Origin: Paenibacillus amylolyticus
GTDB taxonomy: Bacteria; Bacillota; Bacilli; Paenibacillales; Paenibacillaceae
Direction: 5' to 3'
DNA length: 64,000 nucleotides
Assembly (NCBI RefSeq): GCF_029689945.1
Contig: NZ_CP121451.1
Span: forward strand, 6,696,001-6,760,000
In this document: piece after piece, positions 9,134 through 33,769 of the stretch
Layout of the letters: every line of letters begins with the position of its first letter
Position numbering within the stretch: the first letter of the stretch is position 1
Program-made: the position numbers and the translations under genes
The notes under the pieces: generated by a model
What the model was told of the DNA's origin: nothing
Databases searched by the model: none
The model's input: only the letters and a program-made list of their open reading frames with translations

Positions 9134-9327
9134 CCTATCTTCACCCGCCAACCTGACCATAGTTTATATACCTAAATTTTAACAAGTGAGAGTGAGGATT
9201 GGAATCAAACGGAAGAATCATTTCCCCAGATGTTATCCGGTAGTTGGGCAACATCCTTGGGTAACCATTTTTGCACATTAATGCATGAATCAATACCGTT
9301 ATGTCGACGGGAGTCTTGTACAAAAAG

Positions 9328-13104: not shown

Positions 13105-13180
13105 CTGATAAACTCCTTCCATAATATGACGATTCGATCTACTTTCTATAAACCTATTAATATGATGAAAGAATCGAAGA

Positions 13181-13651: not shown

Positions 13652-13781
13652 TTGATCACCTCATATGTACAACGTTAAAAACACTGTTTTGGTTATGTTC
13701 TCTCTTTATATTCTGTCTCTAAAATAGCATGATCGCCAGTCTTCTTCATTCTCGCTCACTCGTTATGACTATATAAAAATC

Positions 13782-13835
13782 CCCCTCAAGTAACTCCATG
13801 TTCTGATTGAACATCGGTTACTTGAAGAGGATTGA
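13782..13835 (-). terminator. Terminator of the GH2 gene
   Basis: On the minus strand CCTCTTCAAGTAAC pairs with GTTACTTGAGGGGG and is followed by ATTTTTATA. It lies 10-60 bases after the glycosidase stop. Confidence 0.8.
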
Positions 13836-13844
13836 TCGGTTACT

Positions 13845-16800
13845 CTACTTCTCGAAACGGAACCAGTCGAAGTCAAACTGACTTCCCGGCAAGAAGATAA
13901 AGATTACCTTTTGCACACCTGTCACGCGTTCAAGCTCAAACACCCGCTCTTCATATCCTTCGGATTGTGTGAACTCAACCAGTTGATTGCTCTGTCCGTC
14001 CGCACCCGCGAAGCGGATATGAATCGTATTGATATCAATCGGTGAATGGCCATGAATAACGAGCTTCGAGGTGCCTTCGCTCGTAAAGTCCATGTTTTCA
14101 AACTCCAGCGACACATTATTCCCGATGCCTTCAACACGGTCACCCTCAATTTTGAAGGTATCTCCATAGAGATGGTCACAGGATGCCGCCGCATTCTGTT
14201 CAAAAGCACGACTCTGGCGTTCAAATGAGAATCCTTTAATATGAATCTTCTGCTTCAACACAAAACAGATCGAAGTAATCCCGCTCAGGCGTTTGGACAG
14301 CTTATACGTCTCTTCCTGATACACATTCCATTTGGATTCCTTGTCATACACCACATCGGCGATCATTGTGCTGCCCTCTTCATCCGGCATGCCTTCCCAG
14401 ATCTGCATGAAGTACTCTTCGCTCGACAATGCAAAGATCGGAATAGTGATCGTATCGGAACCATATGGGCCAAAGTCGATATTGCGGAAGCCTACATGTG
14501 TCTCCCCGTCCCGACTTGTGGCTACGCCGCGTTCATTCCCGTTACCAACCTCACCTTTGGTGTAATCATATAATCCGCCTGTGATGAAGCCGTATGGATC
14601 TTTATAGGCAGTACCGAGCCCTTCCGCTTTGAATTCCAACTGGGAGATGAGTTTGGTTTTGTCCGTACCATTTGCACTGGTAGCGCGAAGTCGGAACGCC
14701 CCGTCACCTATCGCAGATACTTTCACCGTATGTTGATTCTCCCCATTGCCATCCGTTCCCGCAGGCATGACTTCCACCTTGGCAATGTTGGATTCGATGC
14801 CGCCATCATTCACAGCAGCCCATTCGATGTCCCGATAGGACGCGTTCTCTGGATACAGCTTGACTGTTACGAAGAGCTCTGGGTTGGACGGATCGAGCAA
14901 CTGTCCTGATTCGCTGATGATCTCGATTTTCCGCAAAGGAATCTCCTGAGCGCTGCCCGTCAGCACCGGACGTTCTTCATTGACCATGAAGACTTCTTGC
15001 ACTTCTTTTTCATCACTATCGACATCCGTGGCACCCACAACCTGCACTTCATACTCCGCTGCGGCACCTTCCAACCCTTCCGAAGATACTTCAATCCGTA
15101 CCGTTCCGACTTCATCCGTTGCTCCGATAATGGCCATCAGTTTACCGCTAAACAACCTTCTGCTGAGCCCTTTGTATGGATCATAGTCCGTGCTGTCTCC
15201 GTTATCCAGACCCTGTAATCGCCCGGCACCGGACACCTGAACCTGCACGCGGTTGTTTGCATTGTGCACCGGATGACCCGCTTCGTCTTCCACCGTAATT
15301 TCCACGAAAATAAGATCTGTGCCGCTCGCCTGTAGCTGCTCCCGATCCGCCTGCAGACGAATCTTCTTCGCATCCGTAAAGGATCGTTGTACATCCGTCG
15401 CAATCACAACACCGTTCTCATCATACGCGATTGCCTTCAGCTCACCCTCTTCATAAGGGACTTTCCACCAACCGGATAGCTGTGTTCCATGAGCGTGGTC
15501 GATATCGTAGGTGCCAATTGTCGCCCCGTTGAGTTGCAGCTCAATCTTCGGCGCGTTGCTGCACACGCGTACATCAATGATCTGACCCGGGTTGAAATCC
15601 CAATAAGGGAACAGGTGAACCATCGGACTTTTCTTATAATCGGTCCATGCTGCTTGGTAGATATAATAAGCGTCTTTCGGGAACGTTGCCGTGTCCAACT
15701 GTCCAAAATACGAATTCTTCGTATGATACGGTGTCGGTTCACCAATATAGTCGAATCCGGTCCACAGGAATTGGCCCAATGAATACGGACGATCCCGCTC
15801 AGCCAGAATGCAATATTCAGCCGACTTCGCGCCCCAGCTTGTCGTGCTGTTCCCAAGCGCCGAGCACTGCTCGTCATCATCGGCCAGAATCGGCTGTTCA
15901 AACGGGAAGTGATAGATGCCACGGCTCTGCACCACTGATGAGGTCTCACTGCCATAGATAATCCAGTCTGGATGTTCTGCATGGTGTTGGTCGTAGTATT
16001 TTTCCGCGTAGTTGTAGCCTGCCAGCTTCACGATATCCGCACATTTCTGTGCATTTTCCCATGGCATGTAGTTCGAACCGATGGTCACGCCCGCATTGCC
16101 TTTTGGATCGTATTCCAGCACATAATCCATCAGCATCCGAGTCACTTCCTGTCCGCGCTCATCCGCATGGGTATCATAGATTTCGTTCCCGATACTCCAC
16201 ATGATCAGACTGACATGATTACGGTCACGTTTCACCCAGCTCTTCACATCCGTATGCGCCCACTCCGGGAAGAATCTCGCATAGTCATATGGCGTTTTCG
16301 CCCGCTCCCACATGTCGAAGGCTTCGGACACAATCAGCATACCCATCTCATCCGCGAGTTCCATAAACTCTTTGGCCGGCATATTATGTGCGGTCCGGAT
16401 GGCGTTAACACCCATTTCTTTGAGCAAAACGAATCTTCTACGCAGTGCCGTCAGGTTAAACGCCGCTCCCAATGCCCCGAGATCATGGTGTTCACACACG
16501 CCGTTCATCTTCGTATGGACCCCATTCAGATAGAATCCTTCACTCGGATCCAGCTTAACGTCCTTGAATCCGATACGCTGGGACACAGTCTCAATAATCT
16601 CTTCGCTCTGATCTTCCGAGATCAGTTTCAGCTCCGTGACCAGCTCATACAGATGTGGGGCATCCGGGCTCCACAGGTTAGGATTCAAAACAATAATCTG
16701 TTGGCTATCTGTCGATACAACCGCGTTCGAACCCACCGAAGCCGTAACATTCGCTTGGCTGGATGCCACCACTTGACCTTCAAACCGGATCGTATGCACC

Positions 16801-17651: not shown

Positions 17652-19499
17652 CTATCCCTTGTAAAAAGGGTTCCACCCTATGCCTTTGCCCGATGGCATC
17701 GCGCCAGGCACACCGTCCGCTTCAAGCAGCGGACGGACAACTAACTTCACGGGCCACGCCTCGCTCTCAAATACCGCATGAGCGAGTTCGGCCCGGTCAT
17801 CCTCAAGAAGCTGCACTTGCGTCAGCGCTTCCTTCCAAGCCTGCTCCGTGATCTCCCAGAACTTCGTTTCCGGGATGTGATACACCTCGCTAAGGGCCTC
17901 CATGATCGGAGCCAGATTCACCTGCGTCCCCAAAGACTGCACATAAAAGATCAGCTTCTGAATCGTCTCGTTGTACAGGCTGTTCGAGTAGCCCGGACGA
18001 ATATGATAAGCAGGGTCTGCAATGCCATGCTGATCCAGATAAGGCTGATGCAAACGCACGGAATCATGATCGCGAAACAAGAGCCCCTTTACCTGATTAT
18101 CCTGTAACACCAGACAGCAGTTCTGACCATGAATTTCAGGCACAACGCCCACTTTGAACAGACGCATCACGATATCATAGAATGTCGTAGCTGTACTCCT
18201 ATAGAATTCCACCACGTCTGCACTGCTCAGATTATCCCCCAGAATCTCGGTTAATAGATGATGTCCATCCAGATTCACACCGAGTGCTGCCATGGGAATG
18301 ACTTTGTAGGATTCATCCAACAACTCAGAGGGATACACACGAATCTGTGCAGCCAGATGGCGGGGATGATCGTCGAACAGTCCCATGGATTCTGGCATGA
18401 AGCCCCACCAGTTCTGCTCTTCGCACATGTACACCTTGTCCTTCAATGTCTCGTCACAAGCCACGGCTTGTCGTAACATCCGTTCTCCCGCAAGACCATT
18501 CAGCAGCTTGACCACCGGAAGATAACGAGCAGCCCCTAGCGACAGCACACTAACGGGTAACTTGAGCATTAGAGTGGATTCGGTTAATGGGGCCATCGAG
18601 CGCAGAGAGGATGTGGCCTGTACGTAGCCTACTTCTACATCCAATACGACAATGCTACCTGCTTCGATCTCTTCATTGAAACGGGGCAGAATCACATGCT
18701 GTAATTGCCACGGATGAACAGGCATCGGCAGATATTCGTAGAGCGTGATCCCTTTTCGGGCAAACTCAGCTTCCACCATCCCGCGCTGAACTTCGTCTAA
18801 CACGTCCATAATGGATAGTCCATCTTCGCAACCTTGCTGCACGGCATCCAGTCGTATGGCTACCCAGCGTAGTGAAATCGCCTTCCCGAATTCCGCTGCA
18901 TACTGTGTTACATCTTCTGCGTTGAATCCCACCTTGGCTTTGGACGATGGATGAAATGGACGATCTCGCAATGCTGCAACACGTTCACCTTTGATAAACC
19001 ACTCATAAGCAGATGCCGGGACGTTGGCGGACAGATACTGGACTTGTTCCCAGCCCAGAGCATACTGCTCCACAGCAATCTCCAGACTAGACAGGAATTC
19101 TGCCACTCCGGGTTGTGCATAGGCTTCATCCGACAAAGCCTTTTGTAACACCGCACGTGAAACCTCTGCCGGAGAATCAAGAAGAACCCAGCTTCCATCT
19201 GCCTTCTCCTCGTAGATCGGTGAACCCTGAACCCACTGAATCCCCTGTCTTACTCCTGCTTCAACCAGACACAGTACGGCTTGCGTATGCAATTTATAAT
19301 GAGAAGCACCCTTCTCATTATGCTCTTCGCCCTCATATTCCTTATACATTCGCCGGAATGGTGCAGGTGCCGTGGCAAACTCAATGAATGCATGACTCTC
19401 CAGTGGAAGCAATTGCTCCGACAAGAATGAATTCATCAGATCCGCCATAATCCGGCGTTCAGCGGCTTGCAGACTGGAACGCTTCATCAATGTTGACAT
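17652..19499 (-). CDS. NIS siderophore synthetase (IucA/IucC family), operon gene 8
   Basis: About 615 residues, intact. It is an NRPS-independent siderophore synthetase that adenylates a carboxylate (citrate or 2-oxoglutarate type) and transfers it to an amine. Visible signatures are the ATP-binding HPSSKAKVGF, the PMPVHPWQLQHVI segment and the C-terminal HGQNCCLVL and LLFRDHDSVRL regions, the last with an Arg-Asp pair found in the thumb/palm active site. FhuF-like cysteines are absent. The ATG at 19499 has GGAGG 9 bases upstream; an earlier ATG at 19505 is possible. It overlaps the end of the decarboxylase gene, as expected of a coupled operon. Closest role by gene order: AcsA or SbnF-type. 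Confidence 0.9.
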   Translation of the reverse strand: MSTLMKRSSLQAAERRIMADLMNSFLSEQLLPLESHAFIEFATAPAPFRRMYKEYEGEEHNEKGASHYKLHTQAVLCLVEAGVRQGIQWVQGSPIYEEKADGSWVLLDSPAEVSRAVLQKALSDEAYAQPGVAEFLSSLEIAVEQYALGWEQVQYLSANVPASAYEWFIKGERVAALRDRPFHPSSKAKVGFNAEDVTQYAAEFGKAISLRWVAIRLDAVQQGCEDGLSIMDVLDEVQRGMVEAEFARKGITLYEYLPMPVHPWQLQHVILPRFNEEIEAGSIVVLDVEVGYVQATSSLRSMAPLTESTLMLKLPVSVLSLGAARYLPVVKLLNGLAGERMLRQAVACDETLKDKVYMCEEQNWWGFMPESMGLFDDHPRHLAAQIRVYPSELLDESYKVIPMAALGVNLDGHHLLTEILGDNLSSADVVEFYRSTATTFYDIVMRLFKVGVVPEIHGQNCCLVLQDNQVKGLLFRDHDSVRLHQPYLDQHGIADPAYHIRPGYSNSLYNETIQKLIFYVQSLGTQVNLAPIMEALSEVYHIPETKFWEITEQAWKEALTQVQLLEDDRAELAHAVFESEAWPVKLVVRPLLEADGVPGAMPSGKGIGWNPFYKG

Positions 19500-20722
19500 G
19501 ATCATTGTCCTCCGTTAGATAATGGAATGCCGGGTGCGGATGCCCCAGAAAATCGTGATGCGAGATGGTCCAGCAATAAGCTCCAGACTTTTCAAACAAA
19601 ACAATGTCTCCCACGCGCAGTAGTGCTACCTCCGCATCAGAATGCATACGATCCTTGGGTGTGCATAACTCCCCAACGATATGGACGCGATGATCCCTTA
19701 CCTCTGGCCTGGCAAATGAATGCTTCCAACGCTCCGTCGCCATAATCTGAAACGGGTGGTTATGTCCCCATGAAGCAGGCAGACGATGATGATGTGTACC
19801 TCCCCTTAACACGGCAAAATGCTGACCATGAGAAGTTTTGATATCCGTAACCTCTGCTGCGTAATATCCGTGGTCTGCGACCAACAGTCGGCCTGATTCG
19901 AAATACAATTCGCCTCCACGTGAAGCAAGGCGTTCTCTGGCTTCACTTTGCTCCAGCAGGGAAGTGAATAACGGCCAGTTGAATCCGGGACTGCCATCAT
20001 AGGTGACACCAAACCCGCCTCCTGCATTCACCACTTCGACAGGTAGATCGTACTCGTGTTGCCACTGCTCTACCTTTTGCAAATACAATTCGATCATCTC
20101 GGCATGCAGCCTGGCATCCATATTGTTGGACAAAGAGTGGAAGTGGAACCCGATCAACCGAACAATACCCGCGCCTTCCACACGAATAAGCTCGATCGCT
20201 TCTTCCACCGACTCTTCATCGATGCCAAAAGGACTTGGCCCCCCCCATGACAATCTTCGTCCGAGGTAACGTACTACTTCGCAGATTGATTCGGAGCAGA
20301 ATGCGAACCTCCTGCACCTGCTGCTTCTCTCGCTCCTTCGCAATCGCAATGATGCGTCGCAGCTCCAGCAGACTTTCCACATGGATATAACTCACGCCTT
20401 GCTCGATCGCCAGCCGCAGCTCGCTCTCCTTTTTCCCGGACCGCCGAACAGAATCGGAACCTCCCGACTTACAGTCCTAACCTTGAGCAGCTTCTCCAAT
20501 AGAAGCCACTTCAAAGCCCTTCACAAATGGAAGCAACGCCTCAATGATTCGCGGATCAGGATTCGCCTTGATCGCATAGAACAACTGTGTGTTTCCGGGC
20601 ATGCTGCCCAACATCTGACGTACCTGTTCCTGCATGCCAGCCAGATCATAGACATACGCACATACCGGTTCTTCCATTCCGCGTTGCAGTTCATCTATCG
20701 CATGCCATACACTCGATTTCAT
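19459..20722 (-). CDS. PLP-dependent decarboxylase (fold III, LysA-like), operon gene 7, frameshifted
   Basis: Repairing three indels (extra base near 20477, missing base in the T5 run 20430-20434, extra base in the C8 run 20239-20246) gives 420 residues. The PLP lysine lies in LFYAIKANPDP, and VNAGGGFGV and YFESGRLLVADHG supply phosphate- and substrate-binding loops. A CTPKD segment holds the catalytic Cys equivalent. Family knowledge: SbnH, AcsE and PvsE are such enzymes, decarboxylating a citryl-diaminoacid intermediate or the amino acid itself to give the diamine or aminoalcohol unit. The start ATG overlaps the stop of the upstream citrate-synthase gene (ATGA). Confidence 0.85.
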
Positions 20723-21495
20723 AGTTGCCCACCCGCATTCCTGTAGTCATTCCGTTTTTGGACGTACGCCCGAAACGCCGTATTCCGATCATCACCCAGC
20801 ACGTAGATATGTACTCCCCGCTCAGCCCAGAGCGTCATGTCTTCCACACCTCTGGTGACGGATGCATAAGGTACTCCGCACTGCTTCGCAGTAGTGTACA
20901 ATTCATCCAGCGCCTGTCTCACATCCAGGTGCTCCGTCTGCCATGGCACGCCGAGGGACTGCGACAGATCCGCCGCCCCTTCCAATACAAAGCTCACCTG
21001 AGGGTGAGACAGAATCTGTGCACTTTGCCGAACGCCCTCCACACTTTCAATCATGGGCACAATCATCACCTGTTGGTTAGCTTCCTCGATGTATCCAGTG
21101 AGCGGATATTTCCCGAATAAACCAGGACGGCCACTGTTCAGACTCCGCATTCCAACTGGATGATAGTAGGCGTGATGGACCGCTTCCTCCACCTGCTCCA
21201 GTCGCTCGACATGCGGAATGACGATGCCTTGTGCCCCACAATCCAGCACTTTAAGAATCTCCACTCGCTCCACTTTCGAAATGCGAACCAACGGGGTCAA
21301 CCCCACCAGTTCTGCCGCCCTAATCAATTCCTCTACCGACTCCATGGATGTTGCCGCATGTTCCAGATCAATAATGACAAAATCATATTCCGCATGTCCG
21401 ATCATCTCAATGATGACCGGGTGTGGTATGGATACAAAAAGACCATAGACAGGCTGTTTACGTGCAATCTTTTCCTTCAGCGTATTGATTCTCAT
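20719..21495 (-). CDS. HpcH/HpaI-fold citrate synthase-like enzyme (SbnG/AcsB type), operon gene 6
   Basis: A 258-residue class II aldolase-fold protein, intact. The metal ligands are in VPMIESVEGV (Glu) and EGAADLSQSLG (Asp); an Arg and His early in the barrel (DLEHAATS) complete the site. In staphyloferrin B and achromobactin clusters this family (SbnG) makes citrate from oxaloacetate and acetyl-CoA for siderophore use, free of the TCA cycle. Its place between two synthetases and a decarboxylase argues for that role rather than for aromatic degradation. ATGA overlaps join it to both neighbours. Confidence 0.88.
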   Translation of the reverse strand: MRINTLKEKIARKQPVYGLFVSIPHPVIIEMIGHAEYDFVIIDLEHAATSMESVEELIRAAELVGLTPLVRISKVERVEILKVLDCGAQGIVIPHVERLEQVEEAVHHAYYHPVGMRSLNSGRPGLFGKYPLTGYIEEANQQVMIVPMIESVEGVRQSAQILSHPQVSFVLEGAADLSQSLGVPWQTEHLDVRQALDELYTTAKQCGVPYASVTRGVEDMTLWAERGVHIYVLGDDRNTAFRAYVQKRNDYRNAGGQL

Positions 21496-23337
21496 TCGAC
21501 GCTTCCCTTTAATTCAGTCATTCCCTGTAATTCCAGGGCATCCTTGGATACCTTAAGCGGATTGAGCGCCTTACGAAAATACAACTCCCCATCCCCATAC
21601 AGACGGCGTTTGGTCATCTCTTCAATCAATGCATCCTCGGCAAAAAGGTCAAATGCCACGAACCGCTCTGCGTATTCCGGGTGCTCTCGCTGATAATCCA
21701 CAATTACACTTGCGCACAGCTGCCAGAATGACTGCTCTGACAATCCAAACTTCTCAAAGGCCAACGCAATATCTGTCATACAGATAAAAAAGAACGCATC
21801 ATACGTATAGTCGCGAACTTCCGACACATCTCCCGCATAGATGAAGGAATACCGATTGAACTTGCGATGAGTTTCCGGCTCGGGGTTCAGCTTCGGTGCC
21901 CGTTCCGGGTGTAACAGTTGATCCGGTACATAGCGAACACCATCATGCAGATCCTTGATTAACATTCGTTTCGGCAGGTCATCTTCCAGTACCAAAATGA
22001 TATTCTGAGCATGAGATTCCAGCGCAATCCCGTGTGCGTAGAGCAGATGGATAATTGGCAGTGTAACCGTGCGAACAAGGGCCTCGCTCCACTTTGCCAC
22101 ACCATATCGTTCCACAGCATCCTGGATAAATGGAACACCATCCGGCTGCACCAACATCAATGCATTCAGCGGCCACGCCGTCTCGCCTTGCTTCAGATGA
22201 ACCGATACATTCTCTCGCCAGATCGCACCAAGTGTGCCGTAGGCCCGTCCATACTGCGTTGCAGGCAACTGCTCATAACGGAATGACAGTCCCATGATTT
22301 CTTTCAAAAGGCCAAACTGCGCCTGCTGCAACAGCTCATCTTCACGAACGAGTTTATCCAGCCAGTCACTGATCAGCGGTGCGTTCTGGGTCGTATGCTG
22401 TGCCAATATACGTGTGCTCGATGTGTTGGTAATGCTGAGGGCCAGCTTGATGTACGGGGCTTCCGAATTCACCCGGTTCGATAGTGAACGGATGGACTGC
22501 TGCGCACGATAAGGTGATGAGGAAGGCCCGAGATACACAATATCTCCATCCATCAATTGACGCGTATATACCGATTCCAACTGATGCTCCCACTGCCATG
22601 GATGAACCGGAATGAACACATATCCATCTCTCGCGTCAGAACCTGTCTGCCCATCACCCTCCAGAACCTCTTGAAATTGCCGCATGTCCTCCAAGGTGAG
22701 ATGCTGCGCTTACCAATTCTTCAGAACTGTAGCCCGCGGATACAGCGGTCTGAGCGAGTTCTTTTTTCACAGCCACCCAGACTAATGCAACTTCAGAGTT
22801 AAACTCAGGGCCATAGGCCAGATTGTCTTTCAGAGAAAACCCCAACCTCGACTTATAACTCGGGTGATACAGATGACCGTCGGTCATGTGACTTTCGAGC
22901 GCATCATAATGCCGATCTTCACTCGGAATGTTCAAGGGTAATATCGCCCGGCACTGGCTGTCCTTGGCCATCGTTTCAAGCAGTTCCTGGATAAATGCCG
23001 TTACATTCGCACCCTTCAATGAATTCAGCACAATTTCCTCCAAAAACAGATCCAGATCGGTGCACCGAACCCCTTCCCTTTGAATCGAACCCTTCTTCAC
23101 CTTCACCCGGCCAAATGAAAACTTCCGCTCCGCTTCACACGTGTACACCACAGAATCGCTAGAGGATGTAATGCCGCTGGTTCGCCATTCACTCCCACGT
23201 ACATCACTGTCCAAGATACCTTCGAACCACATCGCCTCCAATGTCTGCCGCATGATCCGTTCCTGTACACTCACGTAGACTGCTTCTGTCCTGCCACCTG
23301 CTTCAGCCCTGTATCCCACGACTCCCACGCACTTCAC
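21492..23337 (-). CDS. NIS siderophore synthetase (IucA/IucC family), operon gene 5, one frameshift
   Basis: Two frames (22654-23337 and 21492-22694) join after removal of one A near 22708-22712 (GGTAAGCG to GGTAGCG), giving up to 614 residues. Motifs are HPSYKSRLGFS, IPVHPWQWEHQL, the SSSPYRAQQSIRS strand and ALESHAQNIILVLEDD with KDLHDG in the C-terminal catalytic part. The start is either the GTG at 23337 or a GTG at 23328, which has GGGAG 8 bases upstream. It overlaps its neighbours on both sides. It should form one of the citrate-amine amide bonds. Assigning it to the AcsC or AcsD position would need a tree. Confidence 0.88.
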
Positions 23338-25089
23338 TCCCTATTCGTTTCATTGGATTGCTCACCGGCACATAAGCCGGAGTCTGGCTGATCCCTCTTA
23401 GACAACTCACCAGATTTTGCTTGGCCAGAAATGCATCCGTTGTCAGCAGATGTTGCACATATGCATTGCCCGTTTCTTCCAGTTCCTCCACAAGTGCATC
23501 ACGTACCTGCTTCCAGAAATGCTCCTCCGGGACGTTCACATCTCGCGCCATCGCATGAATCAGAGACCCAGATGATTGACGATAAAATAGTACGATGTCC
23601 TCGCCCAGGCGTTCTCTCGCGAATAAAATAACAAATCCGACGCACCGCGATCCTGCTCACGGATAAGTTCCTCATCCACACTGACCCCTTCCAGGTCGCG
23701 AACGATAAAATCCACTGGCAACCCATCCTTCAAGGTCACAAGGGTATTCTGTAGATGCGCTTCAAAATGAATGCCTTTCTCTCCCGCCGCCCTGACAATC
23801 GGAAGCAGTGAACATGCCAGATAACGTTCCAGCCAACGTTCAGCAATGTCACGTCCACCGCCCAGCATCGTCATCAGCCTGGAGCGCATCCCGGGAAGCG
23901 GTGCCTCAACTAGACTGGATAGTACATACGTATTCGCAGGGTCAAACTCTATGGGCCGATAGGCGATCGTAAACAGGCTGGTCAACTCTTCATCATCAAA
24001 AGCACAAGTCGCTACACCCGTCTCATACGCAATATGCGTATTCGGTTCAGCACCGAAGCAGTCATGCCTGCCTGACGTATGTGGAGGCATCCAGTGTTCT
24101 GCGCATCTGCTCTGCACTGTTGGTGCGAATCATATTGGTAATCTGCATGTTCAGTGACAGCTTGATATTGCAGTTCCATGACGGAACATACACCGTCCGG
24201 ACCGAAGAAGTTGGATACACGGTTGGCCCTGCACTGTCAAGCAGAATCAGTTTTTCATCTCGAATATAAGACTGTACCTCGGTCAACTGTGATATGTACG
24301 TGTATTGCCATGGATGGACGGGCAGCAGCCCATACAGTTCACTCTTTTCTTTTAAAATAGGCTCCACATGGGTCCGCAGAAGATCATGCAGATTCATTAC
24401 CGCCTCGTCATCCACCCATTCCTGCACGTAGACATCCTGCCTTACGGCGATATAACAGAGCTGAAACGATGCGCGCAGCTCCGGGCTGTACTTCTGAACA
24501 TCCTGATCGCTGAAGCCTTTAGAGTTCTTCGGAAATGGATGGAACGGATGACCATATAACAGTGACTGTTCCGATGTGCGATAGTCGTGGATATCGAGAC
24601 CGGCTGCTTGTTCGATATACAACGTCAGGTTGCCCACACTGTTATCTACCTTTTGTGCAAAATCTCTGGCATACGCCGCCTCTAGTCGACTCGCATTCTC
24701 ACTCCATGGATGTACATTCTCCACCTCAAGTGAACGTTTCATTTCCATCGCACGCTTCGGCACTCCATGTTGATTCGAACTCGCTCCCTGTGCCCCCTCT
24801 CCACTTAGCTCACATGTGATCCAGCGAACCAGGTCGCGATAATGGACCGCTTCCCCTCCAGATTCCATGCTGTGGTATTCATGCTCTCCCATGGCAGAGT
24901 AATAGGATAGTTGTCCCGTGATTGTCACCCCGCTGGCTTGAAAAGCAACAGCGTACGTCAGCGTATTTGGATTGATCCGAATATCGCTTTCTTCTCTAAC
25001 GCAAGCTCACGGATGTAACAGTTCAGCAGCAGCTTGCACGAATGTTCATGAGCCTGCTGCTCCGCCTCAGACCGGAGCCTGTTTTCCAT
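23303..25089 (-). CDS. NIS siderophore synthetase (IucA/IucC family), operon gene 4, three frameshifts
   Basis: Three lesions (missing base near 24988-24993, extra base near 24066-24072, missing base in CCC at 23568-23570) hide one protein of about 595 residues. The repaired N-terminus reads MENRLRSEAEQQAHEH, overlapping the end of the exporter gene. Motifs: HPFHPFPKNSKGFS, LPVHPWQYTYI, YPTSSVRTV (ATP-binding loop) and HFEAHLQNTLV with FIVRDLEGV in the palm. The HPWQ and SSxRT pair resembles AcsD-type enzymes, which join citrate to a first nucleophile. The number of lesions is high, but every piece aligns in order, so I take it as functional in the living strain. Confidence 0.85.
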
Positions 25090-26500
25090 CTCGAACAATG
25101 ATGCCAACCTTCTTTCGGGTTATAAGTAGGACCAGGGGAAGTGTAAGCAGTATGGCGCAGCCAAGGCCGATACAGATTTCTTTGAGCGCTCCCCATTTTG
25201 CCATCTCCATGGACGTTCCTGCCCCGGCAAGCCATTGCCAGCGCATATCGTAATACAGGGTCATGCCCATCACCGCAAACGAAGAAGCCAGTCGCTCAAT
25301 CGTGGTCGATAACACCGAACCTTCATGCATGTCTTCCTCCGGCAACGCTTGTAGACCAATAGCAGATATACTCATGCCTGACAGACCAACGCCAACTCCC
25401 CGGCACGCCATGAGCATACCAATGATCCAGATCGGGGCTCCCATCGGCAGAACAGCAAACGACAGGATTGATACCGACACCAGCAACGTGCCCCATGCGA
25501 TAAAATGCATGGACCGACCACGATCCAGCAAGCTGCCGCCAATCCACATGAACAGACTGGTGCAGATTGACAAGGGAATGAACAGCGCACCGGACTGGGC
25601 CGGCGACAGGTGGAAGACATCCTGGAACAATAACGGCAACGCAAAGATCACGCCAAACATGACACAATCCTGAATGGTCGAGATCAGCACGGTCAGTGGA
25701 AAGACGGCATTACGCCGCAGCAGATGGTACCTTATTAGTGGTTCCTTGCGACTGTTCTCGGTCTGGACAAAACGTATGAGTAACACCACACCAAGCGCAA
25801 TCAGCAGCCAAGGTACCCATACCGCCACAACAGGACTCGCATACAACTGTACGCCCAGACTAAGGGCACCTACCGCGCAGATCAGCAGCATCACACTGAT
25901 TGGATGCCATTTTTTCCTGCGGGTAGGGATATACTTCTGAATGACTCGACCGCACCCGATGAATGAGAATACAGCCAGCGGAACATTAAGCCAGAACAGC
26001 ATTTCCAGCCGCCCATACTGAATGATGAAGCCACCCAGCGTAGGCCCGGCCGCTGGAGCCAACATAAGCAGCAACCCCCACGCGCCAGTAATTCGTCCCC
26101 TTACCTCTGGTCCATATACATCAAACAGCAGTACAAGTGATAACGGAATCATCAGCCCGGCGGCAACCCCATGCATGAAACGGACCAGCAACAGTACCTC
26201 AATCGAGTGATAAAATAGTGCACCTGTCACCGAGAACACGCCATAGATTGTGATGCCAAGCATATACGTCTGCTTACGGCCCAGTCGGTCCACGATCAGG
26301 GAAGCCAGCGGCATCGTTAACGTCATGGCCAGCATGTACAGGGCGATGATCCATCCGCCTGCTGTCGTAGAGATCTGATAATATTGCACAAAATAAGGCA
26401 GCAGCAGGTTAAATGCACTATTGGTCAGCACCAGCGAAAAGGCACCAAACAGAATCGCGAGTAATACGGCATGCCTCTTTATCATGGATAGCTTCAGCAT
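25067..26500 (-). CDS. MFS siderophore exporter (DHA2-like), operon gene 3
   Basis: A 477-residue protein, intact, with about 14 hydrophobic segments. Motif A is seen as SLIVDRLGRKQTYMLG after the second segment, and the exporter motif C as LAPAAGPTLGGF. MFS proteins are fixed members of NIS clusters (SbnD, YhcA, PvsC), moving the finished siderophore out of the cell. The position between the aminotransferase and the synthetases supports this. The start ATG overlaps the aminotransferase end by 7 bases. A general drug-efflux role cannot be excluded from sequence alone. Confidence 0.88.
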   Translation of the reverse strand: MLKLSMIKRHAVLLAILFGAFSLVLTNSAFNLLLPYFVQYYQISTTAGGWIIALYMLAMTLTMPLASLIVDRLGRKQTYMLGITIYGVFSVTGALFYHSIEVLLLVRFMHGVAAGLMIPLSLVLLFDVYGPEVRGRITGAWGLLLMLAPAAGPTLGGFIIQYGRLEMLFWLNVPLAVFSFIGCGRVIQKYIPTRRKKWHPISVMLLICAVGALSLGVQLYASPVVAVWVPWLLIALGVVLLIRFVQTENSRKEPLIRYHLLRRNAVFPLTVLISTIQDCVMFGVIFALPLLFQDVFHLSPAQSGALFIPLSICTSLFMWIGGSLLDRGRSMHFIAWGTLLVSVSILSFAVLPMGAPIWIIGMLMACRGVGVGLSGMSISAIGLQALPEEDMHEGSVLSTTIERLASSFAVMGMTLYYDMRWQWLAGAGTSMEMAKWGALKEICIGLGCAILLTLPLVLLITRKKVGIIVRDGKQAPV

Positions 26501-27850
26501 GCAGCCGTTGCTAGGGCAATCGCTTCCGCTACTGATTTCTCAAAGATCGCCAGGATCGCGCCCGATTCTTGTTCCGTAATATTCAGCGGCGGCAGGAAAC
26601 GAACAACAGCTGAATGACGCCCGCCCAGTTCCACGATTAATCCATTCTTGAAACATTCACGTTGAATGGACTCCGCCAGCACACCATTAGGAAGATAGTG
26701 TCCCAGACGATCCTTGCGTCCTGCCGGATCAACCACCTCAACGCCGATCATCAATCCTCTTCCACGCACATCACCAATCTCTGCATATCTCTCTTTCAAT
26801 GCATTCAGTTGACTCATGAACTGTTCACTGCGCAGCTGCACGTTGTGCAGAACATTCTGCTCCCGAATATAGCGAAGTGTCGCAAGTCCCGCCGCCATGG
26901 CCAGCTGATTGCCACGGAACGTGCCAGTGTGAGCGCCAGGTCTGCCATTGATCCAGCTCTTCCCGGTAGATGACAACAGACATCGGCAGGTTGCCGCCCA
27001 CCGCTTTGGAGCAGATGATTACATCGGGTACAATTCCGGCGTGTTCGAATGAAAACATGCGTCCTGTCCGTCCAATGCCGGTCTGCACTTCGTCAATAAT
27101 GAGCGGAATGCTTCGCTCTGCCGTGATTCTGCGTAGCTCCCTTAGCCATTCGAGATCCGCCGGAATTGCCCCGCCTTCGCCCTGCACCGTCTCCACAATG
27201 ACCCCGCATGGTGCGGCAATACCACTCTCGCAATCATCGAGTAAGTTCTCAATGTACTGGGCACTTAACCGGGCCGTCATGCCTTCACCAACACCAAAGG
27301 GGCAGCGGAATTCATAAGGAAACGGCAGAAAATGAACGTCGGGTAACAGGCTTTGCAGATGCTGTTTCTTGCTTAGGTTGCCACTCATCGACATCGTCGC
27401 TTGGGTTGAACCGTGATAACCACCTTGAAAAGCAAGAATCGACTTGCCACCTGTAGCATGTTTGACCAGCTTAATGGCAGCTTCCACTGCATCGGCCCCC
27501 GTTGGACCGCAGAACTGGATTTTGGCTTGGTCCCGCATCTCTTCCGGAAGAATGGAGAATAGTTCTTGCATATATGAAAGCTTCAGGGGCGTTGCCAAAT
27601 CCAGTGTATGTAGCGGAATCTGTTGATCCAGGACATCGCGAATGGCGTTAACCACCGTGTCATGGTTATGCCCCAGCGCCAATGTTCCTGCACCAGCCAG
27701 ACAGTCGTAGAATACGCGGCCTTCCGTATCGGTGATCTTCACCCCATGGGCCTTGCTAATGACAAGCGGGAAATGTCGGGGGTACGATCTTGCATTGGAT
27801 TCCTTCTCATTTTGCAACTTCAGATATTCCGTCTGCACTTCTACTGACAT
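26494..27850 (-). CDS. Class III aminotransferase, diaminobutyrate-2-oxoglutarate type, operon gene 2, one frameshift
   Basis: Frames 26825-27850 and 26494-26976 join at about 26945 with one extra base removed, giving 451 residues. Features of fold-I class III enzymes: GPTGADAVEAAIKLVKHATG, GGYHGST, IIDEVQTGIGRTG and the PLP lysine in IICSKAVGGNLP; HTGTFRGNQLAMAAG lies after the break. The closest role is L-2,4-diaminobutyrate formation from aspartate semialdehyde (AcsF, RhbA and EctB family). This separates the cluster from staphyloferrin B, which uses SbnA and SbnB to make diaminopropionate. AcsF in achromobactin clusters is the same type of enzyme. Confidence 0.87.
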
Positions 27851-28008
27851 AGCCCTTTAACGCTCCTTATAATCGATTCAGGCTGAACCTGCTGCCTGTG
27901 ATTCTTGTTCTTCATTTTGCATATGACATGGTATGGGTTAAAAATGAGGATAAGTTCATCATGGTACATAATGGTTTCCTTCATCTGTACCACGTTATTC
28001 AATATTAT

Positions 28009-29033
28009 TTACACGTTGTTATATGACTTATATTCGAATTGTTCCTGACACAGATATTCCAGATATAACCGAACCACATCACGAGTTGTTCCACCATGGG
28101 GAAAGACGTGGTGTGTCAGATCCGGTAAAGCATTTACTTCCAGAATGCCCCCTGATCACCCGAGAACGGAGTACGGATATCTCGACAACGAACATCGATT
28201 CCTGCTACATCGATCTGAAGCGTCTTCGCTGCCTCAATGATCATTCGGGCATTCTCGGGGTGAATGATTTCGGTACAATCCCTGTAGTATTCACTGATTT
28301 TTCCGGCGGCAGAGTTACGAAGATCATAGAGCTCGATTTCTCTACCAGCAGCAGGTACTTCATTCATTGTTAGCCCTTGTGCACGCAATACCTCGAAGAG
28401 ACGTTCAGCCTTTACATCAACCTGGGGAAACGCTTCATACTCGCCAATGAACGTCATCTTGATTCGTTCCTGATTCAACTGCTCGATTAACGCCCGAACG
28501 GTTGAAGTTCCGTCTCCCTCGACATAGACAGGCCGATACTGGTTCACAGCCGCCACTTCATCGTTAATAATCAGGACTCTGTAATCGATTCCGATCACAT
28601 ATTGCTGCAACATAATGCTGCTGCCATGCACACTCGCAAGCTGAATGGCTGTCTCCAGCTCATCCTGGGTACGTACATCCAGCGTCACGCCCATGCTGCT
28701 GCTTGCATCCAGCGGTTTCACGACAATGGAGCCATGCCTTTCCAGAAAATCTGCTGCTTCGCTTCCCATCTCCGGGATCACGATAAATGTCGGTACAGGC
28801 ATACCCTGTTTATGCAACAACTTGTTACATGCCTGCTTGTTCTTCGCAAGCAATCCAGCGATTAACGGCAGACGATGAGATCTGGTTTTGTTAATGATGA
28901 TCTGCTCGTCCCCTACAGACAGTTTCAGAAAGTCTTCGCATCCCTCAAGAAGAGGCTCACAGGTGATGCCCATTTCTCTCGCTTTGCTTATAATGAGTCG
29001 GTTTTGCAAATTATGAATCCCTTTCGGAAACAC
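28009..29033 (-). CDS. ATP-grasp ligase (PvsA-like / cyanophycin-synthetase fold), operon gene 1, one frameshift
   Basis: A missing G in the run at 28148-28152 (plus-strand C5) truncates the frame. Restoring it gives 341 residues ending EVNALPDLTHHV, FPHGGTTRDVV and a short tail. The ATP-grasp signatures are present: VVKPLDASSSMGVTL, then the dipeptide-ligase-like QQYVIGIDYRVLIIN, and the metal-binding GIDVRCRD with GGILEVNALP. It joins a carboxylate to an amine with ATP. In vibrioferrin synthesis PvsA has this role. It is the first gene of the operon, with a Fur box 265 bases upstream. Substrate unknown; an amino acid added to the citrate or 2-oxoglutarate moiety is the natural guess. Confidence 0.82.
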
Positions 29034-29070
29034 TGAAAATCCTCCTCGATCGAATGAAAGTACTCGCTCC

Positions 29071-29259
29071 TATATAAGTTTCAATACTATTTTTCCACGA
29101 AATCACTGCGTGGTCAGAACCATTTTCCGATCGCTGTTATCCCCAGATTTTTTTGATTCCCTTTCCTCAAGGGAAAATCCGGGGATAAAGGCGCACGCTA
29201 CGCTTCTTCAGATCTGTTCTGCCCCCTCCGTTAACGTATGAAATTTGAATTAATCTTAT
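29071..29259. repeat. MITE-like repeat, copy A (189 bp)
   Basis: Copy A of a family with copies at 47827-48049, 51916-52140 and 60979-61206. The ends are imperfect inverted repeats (TATAAGTTTCAAT and, reversed, TATAAGATTAATTCAAA). The core is a long hairpin: TTATCCCCAGATTTTTT ... AAAATCCGGGGATAA, with an inner stem CCCTTTCC/AAGGG. This copy lacks the central AGCTTTCTTGCAGAAAGCT stem seen in the others. It lies between the Fur box and the first siderophore gene, in the operon's 5' leader. Confidence 0.75.
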
Positions 29260-29296
29260 ATTGCTTATACTTTCATCAATTTGTATTTTCTTTTAA

Positions 29297-29317
29297 TATT
29301 GATAATGATTATCAATA
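29297..29317. promoter_or_regulatory. Fur box of the siderophore operon
   Basis: TTGATAATGATTATCAAT is a near-perfect inverted repeat matching the Fur consensus (TGATAATNATTATCA core, 15 of 15). It lies 264 bases upstream of the ATP-grasp start, with the MITE-like copy A in between. Iron repression of the operon is thus strongly indicated. Confidence 0.9.
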
Positions 29318-29449
29318 TCATACAAATCCTATTTTATGGCAATTCAATCTGAATTGTCAACAATAAACTTTTAAGGAAAAATAAGATTGATTTTAACAAG
29401 GTTGGAATAGGTATGGTTTTGTTACATCTAATAGCAGATACATCAAACA

Positions 29450-29769: not shown

Positions 29770-30591
29770 TCAAGCCAGCTGGGTGTAACGCTGTTCTCCA
29801 TTCAGCTTCCTGCCCCTTCCATGCGGGATGCATGTCGGTGTGCCAAACAGTGGATCGACTGCAATCTCACACTCCATCTGAAAGACCTTGCGGACCATCT
29901 CTTGCGTAACGATATCTTCTGGCTTCCCTTCCGCGTAGATGGACTTATTGTGAACAGCCACAATATGATGTGCATAGCGACATGCCAGATTCAGATCATG
30001 AAGCACCATCACAATCGTGCGTCCTTCCCTTTCATTCAGTTCAAACAACAGATCGAGGATATCAATCTGATGGGTCATATCCAGATAGGTTGTAGGTTCA
30101 TCCAGCAGCAGCGTTTCGGTGCCCTGCGCGAGGGTCATCGCAATCCAGGCACGCTGACGTTGTCCACCGGACAGGGCATCTACAGGACGATCCGCAAGTT
30201 CAGTCAGATGCGTGGACTCCAGTGCCAGCTTGACCATGCGCTCATCCTCTCGTGACCATTGCTTCAGCCACGTTTGATGCGGATAACGTCCTTGCTTAAC
30301 CAGTTGATTCACCGTCAGGCCTTCCGGAGCAGTCGGACCCTGTGGCAGGATGGACATGCGTCTTGAAATCTCCTTGGTCGGCAGCTTCGCAATCTCTTCA
30401 CCATCCAGCAGCACCGAACCGGAACTGGATTTCAGCAACCGGGCCATCGTACGCAGCAGCGTAGATTTGCCGCAGCCGTTGCTGCCAATCAGGACGGTAA
30501 TCTGTCCCTTGGGAATGGTCAAGTTCAAATTTTCAATAATGGGATCTGCTCCATAGGAGATCGTAAGCTCCTTGGCTTCCAGAATACTCAC
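29770..30591 (-). CDS. ABC transporter ATPase, iron-siderophore uptake (FecE/YusV type)
   Basis: A 273-residue ATPase with Walker [10 protein letters not shown], signature [10 protein letters not shown], Walker [13 protein letters not shown] and the H-loop VMVLHDLN. I chose the GTG at 30591 because GAGGAGGAGAG lies just upstream; the upstream open frame to 30687 overlaps the permease gene. The ATPase family serves FecCD-type permeases for ferric citrate and citrate-based siderophores. It is the last gene of the binding protein-permease-permease-ATPase operon. It acts on the inner face of the membrane. Confidence 0.93.
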
Positions 30592-30604
30592 AGCCCTCTC
30601 CTCC

Positions 30605-31647
30605 TCAAAACTGATTTCGATTCTTGAATAACAAATACAGGAAAAATGGTGCGCCAACGCCTGCGGTGAATACCCCTGCGGGAACATCTAGCGGTAAAAA
30701 AGCCGTACGGGCTATCAGATCTGCGACAAATACAAGCAGAGCACCCACCAGTCCGGACACGATCAGCATACTGCCAAACATCCGACCGACCAGCTTTCGG
30801 GCAATATGTGGAGCAATCAGGCCAACAAAACCAATGGTTCCGGCCACAGCCACAGCGATTCCCGCAAGCAGTACACTGCATAACAGCAACGCAGAACGAT
30901 GCCACTGTACCGTTACACCCAGTCCTGTCGCCAAGTCATCCCCGAACTCCTGTGCATTCAGGCTGCGGGCGAACCAGATCGCCAGCGGTACAACAATCAC
31001 CATAACTAGCAGTATGGTTCGAACATCGATCCACGATGCTCCATACACGCTTCCTGTCAGCCAGATATAGGCTTGACCTGCCGTGTAGAACGGACTCAGG
31101 ATCAGCATAAAGGTCGTTCCGGCCCCGGTAATGGCTGAGACTCCAATACCGATTAATACCAAGCGGATCGGACTAACGCCCTTTTTCCAAGCAAGTACGT
31201 AGATGCTCAATGCCGTCAGAAGCGCACCAACAACGGCAAACAGCGGCAAAAGCTTGATGCTCACCGCTCCCCCAGCAACGTAACAAACCCTACAGCCGCA
31301 ACAGCTGCACCGCCAGTGATACCAATGACATCCGGTGAGGCCAGCGGATTACGGATAATGCCTTGCAGCAGCGCGCCTGACATACCGAGCGCTGCACCTA
31401 CGAGCAGGGACAATAACACCCGTGGCAGTCTTAAGGTCAGCACGACGAAGTCATGCTCCCCTTCATTCAGACCCAATATCGTTCTGATCACATCAAGCGG
31501 AGAAATAAAGTCACTACCCACACTGGTACCGACTACTCCAGCCACCAGGAACAGAAAAATACATATGCCGATGACAGCCAGTGATTTTCGTTCCATTTGC
31601 ACCGAGACGGTGTCTTTTTTGTTGCGGAACGTCCACATCTTCCTCAT
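30605..31647 (-). CDS. FecCD-family permease subunit 2, one frameshift
   Basis: Frames 31261-31647 and 30605-31264 join when one G is restored in the plus-strand C5 run at 31269-31273, giving 347 residues with about ten membrane segments. Motifs [25 protein letters not shown] and [15 protein letters not shown] are those of the FecCD family; [12 protein letters not shown] is the loop that docks the ATPase. The first motif is given in full only by position, near residues 73-97. The start overlaps the stop of permease 1 (ATGA-type). It forms the translocation pore with permease 1. Confidence 0.9.
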
Positions 31648-32657
31648 ATCTTCGTCACCCCCTTGCGGGCGATGTACACGAAGAATGGTCCGCCAATCAA
31701 CGCAGTCATGACACCGAGTGGAACTTCCTGCGGCATGATCACCAGTCTAGCCACCACATCTGCGGACAGCAGCAGAATGGCACCTCCGACTATAGAGTAA
31801 GGAACGAGCCAGCGGTAATCATTGCCTACCAGTGCACGCATGATATGGGGAACAACCAGACCGACAAGACCGATCGAACCGGCTACAGCAACTGAACCAC
31901 CCGCCAGCAATACGGTAACAACGCCCATGAGCACCTTGACCAGAAGTACGTTCTGTCCCATGCCTTTGGCGATATCGTCACCCGTCAACAACAGATTGAT
32001 CGCTCTGCCCATGAACAGAGAGACAATGGCTGCGACTGTCATGTACGGCAGAACGGGATATAACATATCCAATGTCCGCCCGCTAACTGAACCGGCCAGC
32101 CAGAACAGTACATCCTGCAATCCGGTTCCATCCAGTACGAGAATGGCTTGTGTGAACGAGGCAAACAATGCCGAGATTGCCGTCCCTGCCAGTACAATTT
32201 TGATCGGTGTCAGGCCATCCCGACCGAGGGATCCCAAGGCATACACAATCGCCGCGGCAACCGCAGCTCCGGCAAAACCAAACCACATCATGGTGGTCAG
32301 CGAGGATACGGACAATACTACAATAGCAATGACAATAAAAAAGATCGCCCCTGCATTGATCCCGAACACACTTGGTGAGGCAAGCGGGTTACGTGTTAAT
32401 GCCTGCATCAGTCCACCCGCTACAGCCAAACTTGCACCAACGACAGCAGCAATAATTGTACGTGGCAGCCGCTCCGTCAGGAGCACCACATGTTCCACCG
32501 AGCTATCGTCATAGAATTGCAGCGCATCCCATGCCATCTGAAATGTGATATGCGTGCGTCCCAGAATCATACTGGCTGTGCAAGCAAGTAGAAGTAATAT
32601 GAATAAACCAACCAGCCCATAGATCTTGGCGCTTGCCTTTGTAAAAAGGGGAAACAT
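31644..32657 (-). CDS. FecCD-family permease subunit 1
   Basis: A 337-residue protein, intact, with about ten membrane segments. Family signatures are RLPRTIIAAVVGASLAVAGG and the ATPase-coupling loop GSIGLVGLVVPHIMRALVG. It pairs with permease 2 as a heterodimer for ferric-siderophore import. The gap to the binding-protein gene is about 100 bases and contains a strong hairpin with a T run, so expression is probably partly attenuated relative to the binding protein. Comparable systems are FecCD, YfmDE and the achromobactin CbrBC pair. Confidence 0.93.
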   Translation of the reverse strand: MFPLFTKASAKIYGLVGLFILLLLACTASMILGRTHITFQMAWDALQFYDDSSVEHVVLLTERLPRTIIAAVVGASLAVAGGLMQALTRNPLASPSVFGINAGAIFFIVIAIVVLSVSSLTTMMWFGFAGAAVAAAIVYALGSLGRDGLTPIKIVLAGTAISALFASFTQAILVLDGTGLQDVLFWLAGSVSGRTLDMLYPVLPYMTVAAIVSLFMGRAINLLLTGDDIAKGMGQNVLLVKVLMGVVTVLLAGGSVAVAGSIGLVGLVVPHIMRALVGNDYRWLVPYSIVGGAILLLSADVVARLVIMPQEVPLGVMTALIGGPFFVYIARKGVTKI

Positions 32658-32687
32658 ATGCTCACTCTTTCATCTGTAAAATGAAAA

Positions 32688-32745
32688 AGGACCTGCCTGC
32701 CCATACACTTCGTTAACGAATGTCCTGGTGCACGGCAGGTCCTGC
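32688..32745 (-). terminator. Intra-operon terminator/attenuator after the binding-protein gene
   Basis: On the minus strand GGACCTGCC ... GGCAGGTCC with a further inner stem (CATTCGTTAACGAA) is followed by TTTTTC. Placed between binding protein and permease, it should give more binding protein than permease, a common pattern. Confidence 0.75.
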
Positions 32746-32755
32746 TCCTGTTTAA

Positions 32756-33769
32756 TTAGTTCAGGTTGAACTGCTTATATAGATCGTCCAGCATCATGTT
32801 GGCCGATGTATATCCACCTGCCATATTCCAGGCCACTTCATCAACCTGAATCAGTTGGTTGTTCTTGACTGCATCAAGATTCTTCCACAGCGGACTGCTG
32901 GTCCAATCATCGTAATTTTTCTGAATGGCATCGGTCTCGGTGCCTGAATTGAAGTTAAAGATCATGTCCGCATTCATATCCGGAATGTTCTCTTTGGAAG
33001 TCAATTCAACTCCCCAAGTATCTGCATCATGTCCTTCAGGTCTGGTGAATCCAAGCTCTTTCAGAATTTTACCTGCATAACCCATGTAGAAAATACGAAC
33101 CTGATCGGCTCTGAAGTTCGTAATGGTTGCTTCAATTGGCAGACGATCGCCCATCTTCTCTTTGAAATCAGCTACACGCACATCCCAATCGGACAATAGC
33201 TTGTTCGATTGCTCAACCATATTCATCGCTTCACCCGCTATTTTCACCGTTTCTTTCCAGTCGAACAGGGTCTCCGTCACTACGGTTGGTGCGATCTGAG
33301 ACAATTGTTCATAGATCTCTTCATGTCTGATCTTTGTAGCAATAATCAAATCCGGTTTCAACTTGTTGATCTCTTCCAGATTGGGCTGGGATTCCTGTCC
33401 TACTTGTGGAACTCCGTCCAGATCCGCTCTCAGATATTCATAGACTGGCTGTTGAACCCATGATTCAACCACGCCTGCCGGTTTCACACCCAGTGCAACG
33501 ACTACATCATTCGCACCCTGGAACAGGGTAACAATCTTTTGTGGTGTTCCCTTTATTGTTGTTTCGCCCATGGCATGTTTGATCACTCGGGTCTGATCTT
33601 CAGTCGCACTGGCAGTGGCATCACTTTCATTATTGCTCTCATTGCTGCTTGCAGCTTGGCTGGAAGTATTCGTTGTCTCGGCACTTCCCCCCGAAGCACA
33701 ACCAGCAAGTAGCGAAATCATCAGAATAAGTGCTGCATAAATGTATAGCTTTTTCTTTACTTTATACAT
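32756..33769 (-). CDS. Iron-siderophore binding lipoprotein (FecB/FhuD family)
   Basis: A 337-residue lipoprotein: signal with basic start and lipobox LAGC (Cys24), a Ser/Thr/Asn/Glu-rich linker to about residue 60, then a type III (helical backbone) binding domain starting GETTIKGTPQKIV. Residues such as GVKPAGVVESW and DLIIATKIRHE fit FecB-like ferric-citrate or carboxylate-siderophore binders. AGGGGAGA precedes the ATG. A Fur box overlaps the promoter region, and the siderophore operon lies next to it, so it most likely binds the ferric form of that siderophore outside the membrane. Confidence 0.92.
   Translation of the reverse strand: MYKVKKKLYIYAALILMISLLAGCASGGSAETTNTSSQAASSNESNNESDATASATEDQTRVIKHAMGETTIKGTPQKIVTLFQGANDVVVALGVKPAGVVESWVQQPVYEYLRADLDGVPQVGQESQPNLEEINKLKPDLIIATKIRHEEIYEQLSQIAPTVVTETLFDWKETVKIAGEAMNMVEQSNKLLSDWDVRVADFKEKMGDRLPIEATITNFRADQVRIFYMGYAGKILKELGFTRPEGHDADTWGVELTSKENIPDMNADMIFNFNSGTETDAIQKNYDDWTSSPLWKNLDAVKNNQLIQVDEVAWNMAGGYTSANMMLDDLYKQFNLN

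Follow-up and report, generated by a model that had tools for sequence, protein, structure and literature searches.

A predicted citrate-based siderophore operon of Paenibacillus amylolyticus with a stand-alone cyanophycin-synthetase-type ATP-grasp ligase

What would a siderophore operon make when a ligase related to cyanophycin synthetase stands at its head? The question is raised by a locus of Paenibacillus amylolyticus (contig NZ_CP121451.1), lying in a stretch of 64,000 nucleotides (nt) that was analysed as a whole and is hereafter called the window; coordinates follow it, and the operon is on its minus strand. Eight gene types were confirmed from 29033 down to 17652, in the order ATP-grasp ligase, aminotransferase, major facilitator superfamily (MFS) exporter, two IucA/IucC synthetases, HpcH/HpaI protein, decarboxylase and a third IucA/IucC synthetase. 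The first-pass annotation had described this order and span behind a Fur box, and both were borne out; it had missed, however, the frame breaks within the operon and the importer adjoining it upstream. Our preferred answer, held with confidence only a little above even, is that the operon and its importer serve a carboxylate siderophore built of citrate, diaminobutyrate (Dab) and ketoglutarate and carrying one extra bond made by the ATP-grasp enzyme, the product of an undescribed cluster type.

The best Pfam E-value per operon gene ranges from 1e-61 (aminotransferase) to 2e-10 (ATP-grasp), with 4e-52 for the last synthetase. The stand-alone ATP-grasp ligase, of the cyanophycin-synthetase G-domain type (28018..29033, split near 28137-28215), is followed by a Dab aminotransferase (AcsF-like; 26494..27850, split near 26942), recognized by Pfam and by the orthologs of relatives, and by a DHA2/EmrB-like MFS exporter (25067..26500, open frame). 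The three synthetases, whose pieces carry the Pfam domains PF04183 (IucA_IucC) and PF06276 (FhuF-like), belong to the nonribosomal peptide synthetase-independent siderophore (NIS) type and are named here in operon order: NIS-E (SbnE-like; 23303..25107, four pieces with breaks near 24991, 24070 and 23567), NIS-F (AcsC/SbnF-like; 21492..23337, split near 22710, its ortholog placed by tree and BLAST) and NIS-C (AcsA/SbnC-like; 17652..19505, open frame). Between the last two lie an HpcH/HpaI aldolase-fold protein, a probable citrate synthase (AcsB/SbnG-like; 20719..21495, open frame), and a pyridoxal phosphate (PLP) decarboxylase (SbnH/PvsE/AcsE-like; 19459..20722, broken between 20231 and 20480). 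Domains and gene content thus support the earlier reading of a NIS carboxylate siderophore operon in a Gram-positive genome. Upstream of the operon there is a candidate Fur box, TGATAATGATTATCA (29300..29314, minus strand, exact match). A box with at least 13 of 15 matches precedes the ATP-grasp gene by no more than 450 bp in 53/53 loci, which are related and hence not independent sequences (locus L199 is outside that list), and in 38 of them it was exact; among 1060 shuffled stretches, which preserve base composition only, one reached at least 13/15.

Concerning the siderophore family, the orthologs of one relative (locus L036) stood in for the split genes of the window, and the named reference clusters were drawn from plasmid records and typed by the genes they contain: achromobactin (L090, L219), staphyloferrin B (L217, L218, L220), vibrioferrin (L262-L265) and a Moraxella cluster with a monooxygenase (L221). 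Labels AcsA-F and SbnC-H on them were assigned by order and similarity, the records themselves naming only sbnA and sbnB; 6knh, 4tv5 and 7cbb are presumably SbnH, SbnG and SbnC of S. aureus. NIS-C has 34-41% identity with AcsA (338-390 bits, versus 95 bits with PvsB) and 30-33% with SbnC, while NIS-F is nearest to AcsC (40-49%). A tree of all three synthetases, which was quick and gave long-branch warnings, placed NIS-F with AcsC/SbnF and NIS-C with AcsA/SbnC. Reliance is placed on a careful type-A tree of 42 synthetases, itself holding two long rows, in which AcsD, the enzyme that forms a citrate-serine ester, groups with PvsD, and NIS-E groups with SbnE (85/58). Specifically, NIS-E shows 30-34% identity with SbnE, its best BLAST match (184-229 bits), and 24% with AcsD. 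Forcing NIS-E of this cluster type together with AcsD made the tree 166 log units worse (p = 6e-6), and forcing NIS-E of both cluster types with AcsD made it 120 log units worse (p = 3e-5), so that one clade with AcsD was rejected. A PvsB-type synthetase was not matched, the best score being the 95 bits of NIS-C, and the tree keeps PvsB separate from NIS-E. The synthetase tree proposed by the first-pass annotation therefore agreed with it for NIS-F and NIS-C and disagreed for NIS-E, and because the first synthetase is not of the AcsD kind and leans to SbnE, the label "achromobactin-type" is unsupported for the operon as a whole.

The aminotransferase is assigned on its sequence to the Dab family, as had been predicted: the ortholog, an intact gene, is 50-57% identical to AcsF and reaches 726.9 bits with the NCBIfam subfamily model PRK06938, whose cut-off is 671, but falls below the cut-off of the equivalog PRK06931. 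SbnA and SbnB are not among the eight genes, nor were they the best match of any plus-strand open reading frame (ORF) in 40 named loci (stretches of 18-21 kb). The aldolase has 46-49% identity with AcsB and 42-43% with SbnG, a small margin over Sbn, and the decarboxylase 40% with SbnH, 37-41% with PvsE and 37% with AcsE. Because its enzymes differ in their nearest family, NIS-E leaning to SbnE and others toward Acs, the system appears as a mosaic.

The ATP-grasp protein of the window is of the cyanophycin-synthetase type, and the ATP-grasp model aligns only to residues 157-485 of CphA1. The proteins of these clusters stand alone, with open frames of 284-381 amino acids (aa; 340 aa in P0001) and without the Mur-ligase-like M domain. 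Residue roles in cyanophycin synthetase were taken from PMC9427784. In CphA1 numbering, K220, K261, R309, D431, E450 and N452 are retained in 40/40 chosen proteins; K220, K261, R309 and D431 can be read in the piece from the window, whose frame ends before position 450, and the reading of the window's second ATP-grasp piece, which was out of frame, did not enter the comparison. The acceptor side differs. Aspartate-binding R458 occurs in 0/40 cluster proteins and in 26/26 long-frame controls, and aspartate-binding R323 in 0/40 and 24/26, the other two controls having Lys. A Tyr323/Asp456 pair replaces the corresponding residues in 33/40, and the remaining seven share Asn and Gly instead. P0097, P0098 and P0100-P0104, two of them named Tumebacillus, are stand-alone cyanophycin-type ATP-grasp proteins with Asn/Gly in place of the Tyr/Asp signature.

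The ligase is also a constant member of its cluster. A protein like the last synthetase is present in 43/75 genomes of the genus, the window's included, and loci were first fetched for 40 of the 42 relatives concerned: 31 have the ATP-grasp operon type, which is complete with its eight gene types in 30, and nine have a type without ATP-grasp, so the context search suggested earlier for Paenibacillus found the eight genes widely. In L040, L054 and L061 one gene each is read in more than one frame. The ATP-grasp profile matched 32/75 genomes of the genus (again counting the window's own), 53/394 of the family, in 8/19 genera, and 99/398 of a phylum sample, where the matches listed outside the family have long frames (579-1026 aa), most of them close to 880 aa, a length also seen in cyanophycin synthetases. 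When named genomes were scanned with two peptide patterns, which divergent members would escape, 40 loci were obtained; they belong to Paenibacillus, Cohnella, Halalkalibacterium, Caldalkalibacillus and Lysinibacillus, NIS-C being at or past the fetched end in most of them. The ATP-grasp gene lies 0.3-3.6 kb from NIS-E in 54/54 loci (53 family genomes and G896) and in 40/40 named loci, a set overlapping the former. Among the 54, eight are without an MFS gene of this kind and one (G025) without the aminotransferase. Conversely, an ATP-grasp gene of this type was found in 0/25 fetched sister NIS loci, which come from 22 genomes with three of them sampled twice, and in 0/10 named reference clusters. 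The cluster type is common to Paenibacillaceae (Paenibacillus, Cohnella) and some Bacillaceae. Loci L066, L204, L206, L209 and L211 show a further NIS arrangement, in which an aminotransferase and NIS-E are joined by an unlabelled gene (about 364-430 aa) and by AcsC-like and AcsA-like genes, without ATP-grasp. Ten genomes (G009, G010, G014, G015, G020, G041, G055, G057, G058 and G073) have three IucA/IucC matches each, but at E 1e-20 no protein resembling the last synthetase of the window, which points to another NIS cluster type in the genus.

PMC9301485 describes, for staphyloferrin B, the coupling of citrate with diaminopropionate by SbnE, of a second diaminopropionate by SbnF and of alpha-ketoglutarate by SbnC; according to PMC3179956, the diamino acid of achromobactin is Dab, perhaps made by the single aminotransferase AcsF. 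By analogy, the aldolase-fold enzyme would supply citrate and the aminotransferase Dab, the SbnE-like synthetase would form an amide between citrate and the diamino acid, the decarboxylase would take one carboxylate off this intermediate, the AcsC-like synthetase would add a second amine and the AcsA-like one alpha-ketoglutarate, with export by the MFS protein and re-import by the ABC system. With Dab in place of diaminopropionate, the result would be a staphyloferrin B homologue to which the ATP-grasp enzyme adds one bond. That enzyme would activate a carboxylate as acyl phosphate and pass it to an amine, giving one further amide or peptide bond. An acidic amino acid is an improbable acceptor, whereas a cationic one, e.g., Dab or a diamine, is possible; which carboxylate and which amine are used is a guess. 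With the extra bond, the product should be distinct from achromobactin, staphyloferrin B and vibrioferrin, in line with the earlier suspicion that it was perhaps identical to none of the three, and the added cyanophycin-related ligase suggests a siderophore not yet described. Whether a cyanophycin-synthetase-like G domain was recruited into a NIS operon, gave up its specificity for aspartate and now serves as the fourth ligase for an undescribed citrate-Dab-ketoglutarate class with an extra amide arm, a class distributed among Paenibacillaceae and neighbouring Bacillota, we regard as evenly balanced.

Several points weigh against this interpretation. The siderophore product is itself a prediction, and the NIS-E and SbnE clade has a support of only 85/58. 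Asn394, which also contacts the aspartate side chain, is kept in 31/40 ATP-grasp proteins, and hence the acceptor pocket is changed only in part; the controls deviate from CphA1 as well (Glu215 to Asp and His267 to Gln, 26/26 each), and the residue alignment with CphA1 is made at about 30% identity. The decarboxylase is about equally close to SbnH, PvsE and AcsE. Finally, G025 (L060/L197) keeps the ATP-grasp gene but is without the operon aminotransferase and MFS gene, and the aminotransferase found elsewhere in its genome is only 40% identical.

The alternative that survives best, overlapping with the preferred scheme and not exclusive of it, is that the ATP-grasp enzyme acts before the NIS steps and makes a precursor such as a dipeptide or a Dab amide, leading to a staphyloferrin B-like product assembled from that ready-made unit. 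We consider it possible, with clearly less than even weight. Its gene is a direct neighbour of the aminotransferase gene in all loci read out but L060/L197 and the fragmentary L199/L257, and cyanophycin G domains and GshF link amino acids (PMC9427784); G025, however, keeps the ligase without an adjacent aminotransferase, and the present data do not separate precursor synthesis from action on a finished scaffold.

Achromobactin itself, or a trivial variant of it, is an unlikely product of the operon, with the ATP-grasp enzyme as an accessory. Aminotransferase, NIS-F, NIS-C and aldolase do resemble the achromobactin-type proteins of Sodalis and Thalassospira more closely than staphyloferrin B-type proteins, where these exist, and the Thalassospira cluster has an aminotransferase, an MFS protein, an aldolase and three synthetases of the same kinds. 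Both the identities and the tree tests of NIS-E nevertheless speak against AcsD, and on those tests identity with achromobactin was rejected; moreover, the ATP-grasp gene is present in 54/54 loci of this type, and the genus also has a type that lacks it.

A still poorer explanation, which we hold very improbable, is a pseudo-operon in decay without any product. It draws on the state of the genes in the window, where only the MFS, HpcH/HpaI and last IucA/IucC genes are open in one frame and five of eight (ATP-grasp, aminotransferase, NIS-E, NIS-F and decarboxylase) are broken into 2-4 pieces over two frames each. For comparison, 80 ORFs of at least 200 aa from a 140-kb stretch of the relative G003 were matched to the window plus 60 kb of flank at an identity of at least 70%. 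Forty matched, and 17 of them were read in more than one frame, 4/7 in the operon and 13/33 outside it; a fused aldolase-decarboxylase ORF of G003 was counted as unsplit, although its middle part was unmatched. Splits are thus frequent outside the operon too, and decay confined to it was rejected; furthermore, the operon pieces keep 67-97% identity with their orthologs and the Fur box is still exact. Only 3/6 break stretches have a run of at least four identical bases within 30 nt. We take the frame breaks of this assembly for assembly errors, with the decay of single genes still possible, and since they extend well beyond the operon, in the window and in L082-L084, pseudogene calls in this genome need care. 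In L035 (G003), aldolase and decarboxylase form one 728-aa frame (11685-13871), either a true fusion or a base error.

That the ATP-grasp enzyme acts as PvsA does and gives a vibrioferrin-type arm is the most doubtful reading of all. Both are ATP-grasp proteins encoded by early biosynthetic genes of NIS operons, yet the proteins at the PvsA place score best with PRK02186 (3/3 scanned), they match the cluster protein with a pairwise BLAST E-value of 0.004 over 91 residues and a profile probability of 17% (E-value = 0.0015, 109 columns), and the synthetases reach at most 95 bits with PvsB and 152 with PvsD. Kinship with PvsA, for which PMC5577590 reports a proposed role in ester formation with citrate, was consequently rejected, since PvsA-place proteins belong to another ATP-grasp subfamily (three of four were scanned), and the earlier wording "vibrioferrin-like ATP-grasp" was dropped.

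Next to the Fur box, which lies just downstream, there is a promoter-like site TTGACA-18-TAAAAT (29331..29360, minus strand, 11/12 match). Such sites number 18 in the region versus 17.3 in shuffles, and terminator counts are at shuffle level as well, so that its position beside the Fur box is its sole support. The operon leader also holds an inserted non-coding repeat between the Fur box and the first gene (29060..29240, minus strand), recognized by genome copies and empty sites: it has 43 matches in the genome, its own copy included (40 of 191 candidates scored), it folds strongly (fold z = -4.0), and L035 and L036 have the empty site. An Rfam scan of the leader gave a chance match only.

An iron-siderophore ATP-binding cassette (ABC) importer lies directly upstream of the operon (29770-33769), also on the minus strand. 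It comprises a substrate-binding protein (Peripla_BP_2; 32756..33769, PF01497 E-value = 1e-26, at the same place in relatives), a FecCD permease (31644..32657, PF01032 E-value = 2e-93), a putative second permease in two pieces (30605..31647; ORFs 31261-31647 and 30605-31264), assigned by its position and by a 347-aa ortholog at this place in L047, and an ATPase (29770..30687, ABC_tran E-value = 2e-32), with a 273-aa ortholog in L047 and an upstream ORF extension that is probably not coding. A FhuF-like protein is encoded just upstream of the ATP-grasp place in 20/40 named loci, and the one scanned has Pfam FhuF and its 2Fe-2S domain; no FhuF-like ORF was seen at the corresponding place in the window. 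Five neighbouring genes were scanned, giving three glycoside hydrolases/amylases, one WXG100 protein and one without a Pfam match. The WXG100-domain protein, a secretion-associated type, is at 8405-9154.

The enzyme families of this operon are already known; their combination, the constant occurrence of the ATP-grasp gene and its altered pocket did not turn up in the literature searched, which excludes most subscription papers, and within the same scope no product has been assigned to the ATP-grasp gene of this cluster type. PMC4209062 refers to a staphyloferrin-like siderophore synthetase of P. polymyxa CR1 and describes Paenibacillus polymyxa and its relatives as plant-growth-promoting rhizobacteria, a setting in which iron supply matters. 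If true, the preferred scheme would give NIS pathways a second type of ATP-grasp chemistry, from a subfamily other than that of PvsA, and it offers a prediction at residue level, i.e., Tyr for Arg323 and Asp for Gly456 in the ATP-grasp pocket.

Compared with known systems, the operon shares with achromobactin-type clusters (Sodalis pSG1, Thalassospira pCSC3H3) the Dab aminotransferase, the MFS gene, AcsC- and AcsA-like synthetases, the AcsB-like aldolase and the adjoining ABC importer, but its first synthetase is not AcsD-like, the ATP-grasp ligase is extra and the gene order is different. With staphyloferrin B-type clusters (Agrobacterium, Rhizobium and Pseudonocardia plasmids) it shares the order MFS, synthetase, synthetase, aldolase, decarboxylase and probably the SbnE-like first synthetase, whereas it has a Dab aminotransferase for SbnA/SbnB, places the SbnC-like gene last and adds the ATP-grasp ligase. 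Vibrioferrin-type clusters (Vibrio fortis, Vibrio sp. THAF190c, Cupriavidus necator pHG1 and Pantoea soli, PvsA being named only in the Pantoea record) resemble it in an ATP-grasp gene near the head of the NIS operon, the MFS gene and the PLP decarboxylase; they differ in having two synthetases, no aminotransferase among the listed genes and an ATP-grasp of another subfamily. The sister NIS clusters (L066-L074, L200-L202 and L204-L216) have related synthetases and, in many cases, the aldolase, decarboxylase and Dab aminotransferase, but they are without this ATP-grasp gene in the fetched stretch and their NIS-C is only 36-49% identical. Finally, in contrast to the G domain of CphA1, the ligase of the window type stands alone in a siderophore operon without an M domain, and both aspartate-binding arginines as well as His267 are replaced in it.

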